The position numbers and the translations under genes were made by a program. Of a stretch of DNA of 64,000 nucleotides, positions 59,136 through 61,496 are shown piece after piece. Every line of letters begins with the position of its first letter. The stretch's first letter is position 1. Source of the DNA: Sedimenticola sp. (GTDB lineage Bacteria; Pseudomonadota; Gammaproteobacteria; Chromatiales; Chromatiaceae); NCBI GenBank assembly GCA_026992075.1, contig JALXAM010000038.1:1-64000 (forward strand), given 5' to 3'. The notes under the pieces were generated by a model, which was not told the origin of the DNA, made no database searches, and saw only the letters and a program-made list of their open reading frames with translations.

Positions 59136-59696
59136 TCAACTCTCCTCTTTCCACTTGATGGAACAACCCATGCTGGGAACCTGCTCTTCTGGCCCTCTTC
59201 CGGTCCGGGCCACCTGCACCATCGCCTCGAACAACTCCCGTCGCGCATCGGGCGGCGCCGCCTCCTTCCGGCTGGCGTCCAGGCGCCCACGGTACTGGAG
59301 CTCGAGGTTGGCGTTGTAGCCGAAGAAATCGGGCGTGCAGACTGCGCCGTAGGCCTTGGCCACCTCCTGGGTCTCATCGAACAGGTAGGGAAAGGGGAAA
59401 TCGTACTCCTCGGCCACCTTCTTCATGTTCTCGAAGGAGTCCTCCTCGTACAGAGAAGGGTCGTTGGACATGATGGCCACCGAACTCACCCCGTAATCGA
59501 GCAGCTCGCGCGTATCCCGCACCAGGCGGTCGCGGATCGCCTTGACGTAGGGGCAGTGGTTGCAGATGAACATCACCAGGGTGCCCTTCTCGCCCCGGCA
59601 GTCCTCCAGGGTCCAGATCTTTCCGTCCACGCCGGGAAGCGCGAAATCCACCGCCGGCTTGCCAAATTCACATACGGGGGTCTGCAGCGATACCAT
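59136..59696 (-). CDS. Thioredoxin-like/AhpC-TSA family protein
   Basis: 186 residues from MVSLQTPVCEFGKPAVDFAL. Thioredoxin fold resembling peroxiredoxin-like TlpA relatives: FALPGVDGKIWTL, and FICNHCPYVKAI, where only one Cys of the usual pair is present. Asp- and Glu-rich centre. Likely a redox protein; partner unknown. Confidence 0.88.
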   Translation of the reverse strand: MVSLQTPVCEFGKPAVDFALPGVDGKIWTLEDCRGEKGTLVMFICNHCPYVKAIRDRLVRDTRELLDYGVSSVAIMSNDPSLYEEDSFENMKKVAEEYDFPFPYLFDETQEVAKAYGAVCTPDFFGYNANLELQYRGRLDASRKEAAPPDARRELFEAMVQVARTGRGPEEQVPSMGCSIKWKEES

Positions 59697-59764
59697 GGGT
59701 CGGCTCCTCCCTCTCGAATCTGCGAAGTGGTGCAATATATCAGCGACGCGACAGAATTAAAAAG

Positions 59765-59905
59765 TTGACAATACTGCCTCTTCCTGAATAATGGCTCCGC
59801 CAGCGCCAATTTGATCTCAGATTGCGGGCGCTATAGAAATGCAGCTAAAGCGAGATTCCGGCCCAGGCCGTGAAACCCGCCTTTGCTGCGCAAGGCGGGT
59901 TTTTT
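59765..59905 (+). promoter_or_regulatory. metK leader: promoter, hairpins and intrinsic terminator
   Basis: TTGACA (59765-59770) and AATAAT (59787-59792) with a 16-base spacer form a strong promoter. About 10 bases later a transcript would begin. Hairpin one pairs AGCGCC (59802-59807) with GGCGCT (59827-59832). CGGC/GCCG at 59859-59870 makes a second. The terminator pairs 59873-59883 with 59892-59902 (AAACCCGCCTT/AAGGCGGGTTT) followed by T. GCAGCTAAAG (59841-59850) can instead pair with CTTTGCTGC (59881-59889), overlapping the terminator's left arm, as in an attenuator. A stand-alone small RNA of about 105 bases is the alternative. Confidence 0.65.
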
Positions 59906-60022
59906 CATTCCCGGTACCGATCAACCTGGTTTGCCGACCACCCTTGAGAAAATCCGGCATGGAGTCACGCCTGGCAGGCCGGCCCGGGATCATTCAAACC
60001 AAGAGACAAGGAACCATTTTTC

Positions 60023-61189
60023 ATGAGCGATTTCATCTTCACCTCGGAATCGGTTGCCGAGGGCCATCCCGATAAGGTGGCCGACCAGATCTCCGACGCC
60101 ATCCTGGATGCCATCCTCGAACAGGACCCCAACCCGGAACAGGCCCGGGTGGCCTGCGAGACCCTGGTCAAGACCGGCGCTGTGATCGTCGCCGGGGAGA
60201 TCACCACGGACGCCTGGGTCGATCTCGACGAGGTGGTGCGGGGAGTGGTGTGCGATATCGGCTACACCAGTTCCAGCGTGGGATTCGACGGCAGTACCTG
60301 CGCAGTGATGTCCCTCATCGGCAAGCAGTCGGGCGACATCGCCATGGGCGTGGACCGGGAGGCGCCGGAAAAACAGGGGGCAGGCGACCAGGGGATGATG
60401 TTCGGCTACGCCACCAACGAGACCGAAGTACTGATGCCGGCTCCCATCCACTACGCCCACCGGCTGGTGCAGCGCCAGGCGGAGATGCGCAAGACCCAGG
60501 TACTGCCCTGGCTCCGCCCCGACGCCAAGAGCCAGGTGACCCTGCGCTACCGCGATGGGCGCATCGTGGCTGCCGACGCCATCGTGCTCTCCACCCAGCA
60601 CGATCCCGATATCGATCAGGATCACCTGCGTGAGGCGGTGATGGAGAACATCATCAAGCCGGTGCTGCCCGAGGAGTGGATCACCCGCGAGACCCGCATC
60701 CACATCAATCCCACCGGCAAGTTCGTCATCGGCGGCCCGGTGGGCGATTGCGGGCTCACCGGCCGCAAGATCATCGTCGACACCTATGGCGGCATGGCGC
60801 GCCACGGCGGGGGCGCCTTCTCCGGCAAGGACCCCTCCAAGGTGGATCGCTCGGCCGCCTACGCCGGGCGTTACGTGGCCAAGAACATCGTCGCCGCCGG
60901 ACTCGCCGACCGTTGCGAGATCCAGGTCTCCTACGCCATCGGCGTGGCCGAGCCCACCTCGGTGAGCATCGAGACCTTCGGCACCGCCAGGATCGACGAG
61001 GAGAAGATCGCGCAACTGGTGCGCGAGCACTTCGACCTCACCCCCTACGGCATCCGCCAGATGCTTGACCTGATCCGGCCCATCTACCGTAAGACCGCCG
61101 CCTACGGCCATTTCGGGCGGGAGGAGCCGGAGTTCAGCTGGGAGCGCACCGACCGGGCGGAGGCGCTGCGCGAGGCCGCGGGGTTGTAA
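60023..61189 (+). CDS. metK: S-adenosylmethionine synthetase
   Basis: 388 residues. [36 protein letters not shown] and [19 protein letters not shown] motifs. Makes SAM from methionine and ATP. Begins the metK-ahcY-metF group, preceded by a leader with a terminator. Confidence 0.97.
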
Positions 61190-61226
61190 GTTATTGCAAA
61201 AAAGCGTAGACACTCTATTTCGCCTG

Positions 61227-61430
61227 AAAGCCGATGTCCCGGTGTTTGTAGCGGGGCGGCGGCGCCCCGCAAGCGCTGGGACCGCCGGGTTTGAAACCCG
61301 ACAGGACAAAAAGTGGTTCAAACGCTTTCGCGGGTCGCTGGCCGATCCTTGGTGACGGGGACGCCGTAAATACATCCCTGTAGGCTTTACGGCAGCATCC
61401 ATGCTGCCGAAACCCCGTCACCAAGGATCG
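61227..61430. repeat. Repeat block between metK and ahcY with core copy C
   Basis: The left part (61227-61260, with GCCGATGTCCCGGTGTTTGT) matches the left arm of copy D at 63070-63100. The right part is copy C: perfect 18-base arms CGATCCTTGGTGACGGGG (61343-61360) and its complement (61413-61430) around the core ACGCCGTAAATACATCCCTG then GGCAGCATCCATGCTGCC. Confidence 0.85.
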
Positions 61431-61463
61431 CCCATCGGCCTTTCGATGCCCTTTGGTTGTTCT

Positions 61464-61485
61464 GTCGGGCTGAAGCCCGACCTAC
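61464..61485. repeat. Single REP unit in front of the SAH riboswitch
   Basis: GTCGGGCTGAAGCCCGACCT followed by AC, the same REP unit seen at 13871, 29361, 45957 and 46127. It ends 11 bases before the riboswitch. Confidence 0.85.
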
Positions 61486-61496
61486 AATCCGCTTAT

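Follow-up and report, generated by a model that had tools for sequence, protein, structure and literature searches.

The SAM-II riboswitch (Rfam SAM_alpha, RF00521) was described in alpha-proteobacteria, and the main text of that description places a promoter usually before stem P1 and, in many members, terminators past P2 (Corbino 2005, PMC1273637). According to the main text of a later paper it occurs sporadically in gamma-proteobacteria and is for the most part linked to a terminator in alpha- and beta-proteobacteria (Barrick and Breaker 2007, PMC2258182), and a passage of PMC2704228 has it most common in the alpha, beta and gamma groups. The main texts of PMC1273637 and PMC2258182, figures and supplements aside, contain no occurrence of metK. 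For the SAM-II riboswitch of metZ in S. meliloti, the relevant sections of PMC9373788 predict that SAM binding causes termination and report that at high SAM the small RNA goes up and the mRNA goes down. The binding-site core of the SAM-V riboswitch is almost perfectly superimposable on that of SAM-II, and SAM binding by SAM-II is called virtually identical to that by SAM-V; the pocket of the SAM-V structure comprises the third-strand U's, U20 and G21, and U47, A48 and A50, and 60% of SAM-II RNAs are given a 5-bp, mostly C-G P2a (structural sections of PMC6061858). PMC5352136 has zero mentions of contact nucleotides.

Two further published elements bear on the present locus. The metXZ element of beta-proteobacteria is outlined, in the part of Leyn 2014 (PMC4239095) devoted to it, as an RNA before metX or metZ whose conserved regions form a pseudoknot and which has a terminator and a proposed antiterminator; it is presented there as new, with SAM_alpha given only for Rhizobiales and Rhodobacterales. 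Bp2_287 (RF02424, "Burkholderia sRNA") lies upstream of methionine genes and its authors suggested a cis-acting element, according to the relevant passage of PMC3521395. A full-text literature search returned no paper on a SAM-II riboswitch on metK in Gammaproteobacteria; subscription journals and supplements lay outside its reach, so that an earlier report may exist. For SAM_alpha riboswitches with metK, or for metXZ together with a SAM-II riboswitch, the full-text literature gave only Leyn 2014, and the main text of PMC3766115 mentions neither SAM_alpha, SAM-II, SAM alpha nor metK.

The DNA analyzed here (the window) is a stretch of 64,000 nucleotides from Sedimenticola sp., and its metK leader and the adjoining genes comprise the following features.

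59765..59792, plus strand: promoter-like site TTGACA-N16-AATAAT
59793..59865, plus strand: full-length match to Rfam SAM_alpha (SAM-II, RF00521), at a sub-gathering score
59801..59858, plus strand: aptamer as delimited by model R1, 82.4 bits
59802..59807, plus strand: P1 5' strand AGCGCC, pairs with 59827-59832
59809..59813, plus strand: AUUUG, presumably the third strand in the SAM-binding triplex (role by SAM-V/SAM-II comparison)
59815..59818, plus strand: pseudoknot P2 5' strand UCUC, pairs with 59852-59855
59822..59825, plus strand: UUGC, presumed SAM-pocket strand, invariant in alignments A1 and A2
59827..59832, plus strand: P1 3' strand GGCGCU, pairs with 59802-59807
59841..59850, plus strand: GCAGCUAAAG, presumed SAM-pocket strand (GCUAAAG) and antiterminator 5' strand
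59852..59855, plus strand: pseudoknot P2 3' strand GAGA, pairs with 59815-59818
59873..59905, plus strand: intrinsic terminator including the T run; 59881-59889, its 5' arm, doubles as 3' strand of the antiterminator
60023..61189, plus strand: metK (methionine adenosyltransferase, SAM-making), the putative regulated gene; ORF of 388 aa, NCBIfam TIGR01034
61493..61557, plus strand: SAH riboswitch (RF01057) 5' of ahcY; context, outside the metK switch

The leader is located between metK, whose product scores 614.5 bits against TIGR01034 (cut-off 309.4), and a divergent ORF (59136-59735, minus strand) that looks thioredoxin-fold-like by eye and gave zero matches in an NCBIfam search at E 1e-10. 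A first-pass annotation of this DNA had proposed a near-consensus promoter followed by about 105 transcribed bases that end in an intrinsic terminator 117 bases before metK. This layout was borne out: the promoter-like site agrees with the consensus at 11 of 12 positions, the transcribed leader measures about 107 bases and ends with the terminator at 59905, and exactly 117 bases separate the end of the T run (T6, 59900-59905) from the metK ATG at 60023. TTGACA was seen by eye in all 13 leaders of the genus inspected (L001-L013). The same annotation had named a metK transcription start downstream of the terminator as evidence against its reading; a motif scan of the plus strand between terminator and metK listed zero further promoter-like sites. 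At gathering thresholds, Rfam yields two matches in the whole window, namely a tRNA and the SAH riboswitch, which scores 59.3 bits (gathering 37) and whose downstream gene was assigned as ahcY by TIGR00936.

At relaxed thresholds in a 501-base search, the leader matches RF00521 over the full model (positions 1-79 of 79) with 25.6 bits and E 9.6e-4, and does not reach the gathering score of 36 bits. That cut-off is a curator's choice and corresponds to no structural feature; by score, the window copy lies outside the database family. The first-pass annotation had recommended such a scan and had left the RNA unassigned, a label superseded by this full-length sub-threshold match and by conserved relatives before metK and metZ. 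On the plus strand SAM_alpha is the only credible Rfam family. No part of the window matched SAM-I at its gathering score, and up to E 10 a match was also lacking in 59600-60100; the annotation was right that the SAM-I consensus is absent, but the passing likeness that it noted sits in the terminator and the hairpin preceding it, whereas the aptamer lies upstream at 59801-59858. SAM-V likewise produced no row up to E 10 in 59600-60100, and the metK ATG is 164 bases past the aptamer. Plus-strand matches to rnk_pseudo, anti-hemB, RybB and P9 (E 0.8-8.7) rest mostly on the terminator hairpin and are regarded as chance.

Two alignments were used to characterize the RNA. Aptamers were sought at 35 places, of which four were dropped for lack of the core (G019, G034:C97, G047:C17 and G000:C2) and one, in G010, was not located; of the 30 extracted, four identical rows (G001, G002, G008, G009) and one with an insertion (G034) were left unaligned, giving the 25 aptamers of A1, from which covariance model R1 was built. 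The match of the window to R1 holds by construction, since its sequence is part of the model. A2 consists of 21 of 35 distinct leaders, chosen by eye for a common register, with the other 14 dropped, and its pairing counts therefore lean towards pairing.

P1, a part of SAM-II, is present with six mostly invariant pairs (paired cells: 98.0% for A1 and 95.2% for A2), and P2, which joins the P1 loop to the 3' tail, is present but short (82.0% of cells paired over four pairs in A1, 95.2% over three pairs in A2). The motifs AUUU, UUGC and GCUAAA are invariant in the 25 rows of A1 and the 21 rows of A2, rows that were picked partly for having this core. By motif, the pocket strands of SAM-V would correspond to UUU at 59810-59812, UUG at 59822-59824 and UAAA at 59846-59849, and the presumed SAM-contacting positions are invariant in A2 and, except for the equivalent of A18, also in A1. 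The leader thus shares with SAM-II the P1 stem and H-type pseudoknot, the AUUU/UUGC/GCUAAAG strands, the promoter just before P1, the terminator past the pseudoknot found in many SAM-II RNAs, and a methionine or SAM gene downstream. It differs from SAM-II in its sub-gathering score, a P2 of about 3-5 pairs, a near-fixed P1 of GCGCC/GGCGC and metK as target. SAM-V, unlike the leader, is translational, with the Shine-Dalgarno sequence next to the pseudoknot, and SAM-I has only the ligand in common with it.

The near invariance of P1 and P2 leaves only thin support from covariation for the aptamer itself: double-sided changes occur in 3 of the 10 pairs of A1, a number that 83 of 500 shuffles reach, although none of the 500 attains the covariation score. 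In the terminator stem of A2, 5 of 9 pairs change on both sides (reached by 20/500 shuffles), with a covariation score reached by none of 500.

The regulatory terminator of SAM-II is also represented, with a terminator and a mutually exclusive antiterminator. In the window, GCAGCTAAAG (59841-59850) pairs with CTTTGCTGC (59881-59889) through nine pairs with one bulged U, confirming the earlier proposal that an upstream strand can pair inside the terminator, and so low a duplex energy exceeds chance, with 6 of 2000 shuffled terminator arms attaining it. The two exclusive folds postulated as riboswitch or attenuator architecture are nearly equal in energy (terminator -42.9, antiterminator -42.1 kcal/mol), and their alternative pairing is kept across leaders. 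Transcripts ending at 59889-59896, in which the 3' arm of the terminator is incomplete, prefer the antiterminator fold. In A2 the antiterminator pair of columns 42/97 is GC in 12 rows, GU in 5 and AU in 4 with no mismatch (n=21); 2 of 5 antiterminator pairs change on both sides (85/500 shuffles reach that), and the covariation score is reached by 4/500 shuffles.

The same pairing was evaluated in a wider set of 139 aptamer copies, which are not independent as several loci were fetched twice. The GCTAAA core was located in 138 of them (in L087 the wrong GCTAAA was taken), a terminator was detected in 120 of these 138 leaders, and deduplication left 111 leaders (35 of metK, 63 of metZ and 13 others). 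The mean duplex energy between the aptamer strand and the terminator arm is -9.0 kcal/mol for metK and -11.1 kcal/mol for metZ, compared with -5.3 and -4.4 for shuffled arms, and single leaders beat their shuffled arms (p <= 0.05) in 15/35 metK, 57/63 metZ and 12/13 other cases. When arms were swapped within a group, they paired as well in 1 of 200 swaps for metK and 0 of 200 for metZ, which supports co-variation of the two strands in these groups; the test fails in the 13 other leaders, where 192 of 200 swaps were as low or lower. Prefixes lacking the 3' arm of the terminator fold as antiterminator in 30/35 metK, 57/63 metZ and 12/13 other leaders (12.5, 15.6 and 2.6 expected with shuffled arms), and the full-length minimum free energy structure contains the terminator in 26/35, 30/63 and 8/13, respectively.

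Computation thus establishes the parts of the leader, their conservation, the mutual exclusivity of the two folds and the kept complementarity. We consider it a divergent SAM-II-type riboswitch with a transcription-termination platform that exerts feedback control on metK, at a probability of roughly 0.88, and we infer that it binds SAM, that termination depends on SAM, and in which direction the switch works. There is a high probability that it works like a SAM-II riboswitch, and SAM is the best guess for the ligand. When SAM is scarce, the nascent strand GCAGCUAAAG would pair with CUUUGCUGC, which belongs to the terminator's 5' arm; the antiterminator so formed would block the terminator, and polymerase would read into metK. 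When SAM is abundant, it would bind the P1/P2 pseudoknot, whose pocket is predicted to use the same GCUAAAG strand; with the pocket occupied the antiterminator would be blocked, the terminator would fold, and transcription would stop at about 59905 with metK off. Because both use the GCUAAAG strand, SAM pocket and antiterminator would be mutually exclusive, which implies an OFF switch.

Of 14 other genomes of the genus, 12 contain the leader DNA (E < 1e-24). The leader hence survived the lack of conservation among relatives that had been named as a refutation; it was not found in G010 and G014, both 84% complete. Among 55 relatives, RF00521 scores above gathering in three, the top copy reaching 42.1 bits. 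The best 24 RF00521 matches in relatives (to E 0.0167, the window included) comprise 23 with the same core and one without it (G019), and the 23 coincide with sites located by a separate search for DNA similarity. The RF00521 cut-off was reached in no locus among the 12 scanned from named relatives. At E <= 0.001, R1 matches 179 of 369 genomes sampled from the class, 162 of them with a best E < 1e-8; the other 17 may include partial or chance matches, and both that were checked (G278, G166) are partial. Its matches extend to 69 of 194 genomes from the family and 21 of 200 from the phylum, a reach that is partly by construction because the model was trained on family and class relatives. In the class sample RF00521 itself matches 117 of 369 genomes at E <= 0.001 and exceeds its cut-off in 30; about 1/6 to 1/5 of the same-looking RNA there is apparently all that the standard Rfam threshold picks up.

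Methionine or SAM genes downstream, a further feature of SAM-II, were found as well. By best BLAST assignment in the DNA fetched, the genes downstream of the 139 copies are metK in 42 cases, metZ-like in 77 and neither in 20; the metZ reference was O-succinylhomoserine sulfhydrylase (NCBIfam NF006003), and in a few cases the assigned gene is over 600 bases off or 36-45% identical. Two SAM-II-type aptamers in the "neither" group precede metF (L130 by PF02219, L131 by sequence likeness), and in L174 (267-325, genome G023) an aptamer with terminator is followed about 265 bases on by an ORF that resembles a TrkH-like potassium transporter by eye, with no methionine gene. Five family genomes (G017, G020, G024, G025 and G030) carry one copy before metK and another before metZ. 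The genome of the window also has metZ (G000:C55), where an unfiltered R1 search for a second aptamer found nothing credible (best 3.5 bits), and a weak RF00521 match elsewhere in it (G000:C2, E 0.33) was rejected, having no R1 match (L056). An exact-pattern scan of named genomes returned 35 stretches, 16 of them labelled Sedimenticola; metK follows in all 31 loci that could be read (30 by BLAST, L195 by reading), and four stretches end too early for metK to be read (L182, L184, L187, L199). The SAH riboswitch lies downstream in 8 of 12 named loci scanned, and some of the other four end early. No MetJ was found in any of 29 relatives searched, the genome of the window included, with a positive E. 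coli control. For the gammaproteobacteria near Sedimenticola, the leader provides a concrete candidate for a SAM feedback loop on the gene of SAM synthesis in relatives in which MetJ was not found.

The first-pass annotation had also allowed for a stand-alone small RNA. Under such an explanation the terminated leader of about 107 nt would act in trans, and metK would depend on read-through or on a different promoter. The leader does have its own promoter-like site and terminator, and the metZ SAM-II leader of S. meliloti accumulates as the small RNA RZ, as the corresponding section of PMC9373788 states. However, the position before metK or metZ in many genera and the kept antiterminator complementarity speak for control in cis, and the motif scan lists no other plus-strand promoter-like site between terminator and metK. 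A purely stand-alone role is unlikely since metK follows in every readable exact-pattern locus, and we rate the trans-acting explanation as quite improbable; terminated RNA may accumulate as a by-product. Because small RNA and regulated read-through coexist in S. meliloti, a small RNA would be an addition to cis control and not an alternative.

A SAM-II-derived aptamer whose ligand has shifted to SAH, methionine or a related compound, with the platform logic kept, would be compatible with a score under the Rfam cut-off, and sequence alone cannot give the ligand. We nevertheless hold such a shift to be very improbable, as the presumed SAM-contacting positions, mapped by analogy, are conserved as described above, the neighbouring ahcY already has an above-cut-off SAH riboswitch, and metK is itself the SAM-making gene. 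A constitutive attenuator or decaying relic, i.e. a promoter with a leaky terminator that responds to no ligand, could account for the two genomes of the genus without a detectable copy, but hardly for a core conserved over many genera, a full-length family match and an alternative pairing that is kept; its probability is close to negligible. The SAM-II-type riboswitch remains our preferred reading.

The minus strand was considered as the functional one on account of RF02424, which matches the window on that strand at 59776-59905 with 41.7 bits. Among the class genomes there are 24 such matches, all antisense on R1 matches (22 of the latter full-length, 2 weak and partial), and none of the 24 reaches the RF02424 gathering score of 70. 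By position, Bp2_287 is the same stretch of DNA as the leader, with the opposite strand read by the Rfam model. The minus-strand reading was rejected because the plus strand is indicated alike by promoter, T run, gene order and SAM_alpha match, and because the 24 matches are antisense to the leader RNA. Read in reverse complement, RF02424 seems to correspond to a SAM-II leader together with its terminator, and a strand error in this family is likely. The description of the metXZ element, as far as the published account of it goes, fits the present aptamers before metZ, and by this comparison of descriptions it is probably the same RNA as the leader. Taken together, this suggests that SAM_alpha, the metXZ element and Bp2_287 are three database or literature entries for a single RNA, with the strand wrong in one of them.

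Tandem arrangements were observed in ten loci (L160 521-691, L143 209-380, L067, L156, L126, L161, L162, L163, L167 and L168), in which a SAM-II copy and terminator are followed by a second, divergent aptamer 93-119 bases on (start to start). The second aptamer has a different P1 (e.g. ATCGCC/GGCGAT) and, downstream of it, a hairpin in which the ribosome-binding site is hidden, as judged by eye. For the seven of these loci that were scanned (L143, L160, L126, L163, L161, L162, L167), Rfam offered no family for the second copy at E <= 0.1. Genes downstream of the tandems are metK (L160), a MoxR-like ATPase (L143 by PF07728, L067 by likeness) and hypothetical proteins. Genome G279 (C2 and C6) contains five tandem pairs, of which the two that were read (L167 and L168) precede related proteins; L168 is near-identical to L167 and was left out of two of the analyses. 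A SAM-II/SAM-V pair before bhmt is on record in Pelagibacter, in a passage of PMC2704228. A separate model for the second aptamer (R2) was discarded as unspecific: it also matches ordinary copies, including that of the window, and for this reason its tally (124/284) is no count of the variant.

Lone aptamers of the second type, with no adjacent first aptamer found, were seen before hypothetical genes with no known SAM link (L159 776-835 on the minus strand, L172 289-348, L171 345-405 and L160 2555-2615). The one in L171 lies about 645 bases before an integrase-like gene (by eye), and for those in L159 and L172 Rfam gave no family at E <= 0.1. As a tentative and rather doubtful generalization, the RNA may represent a large coherent gamma/beta subclass of SAM-II, mostly missed by family models, in which the pocket strand doubles as antiterminator and SAM feedback acts on metK and metZ without MetJ; in some genomes it would form a two-stage tandem with a second, Rfam-unmatched aptamer before a hairpin hiding the ribosome-binding site, beside genes without known SAM link, and the ligand or role of this second aptamer may have changed.

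SAM-II-type aptamers were also encountered on plasmids, in Legionella adelaidensis (plasmid 21, L248) and Paracoccus seriniphilus (plasmid p599725, L247), with 60-61 bits for R1 and 30-31 bits for RF00521. The PLSDB gene table, which is incomplete, lists no methionine gene in these stretches; the L247 aptamer precedes a small hypothetical gene and that of L248 lies beside a vWA-domain gene. In the window itself, the region between metK and the SAH riboswitch (61190-61490) is palindromic and rich in GTCGGGCTGAAGCCCGACCTACA-like repeats, as seen by eye.
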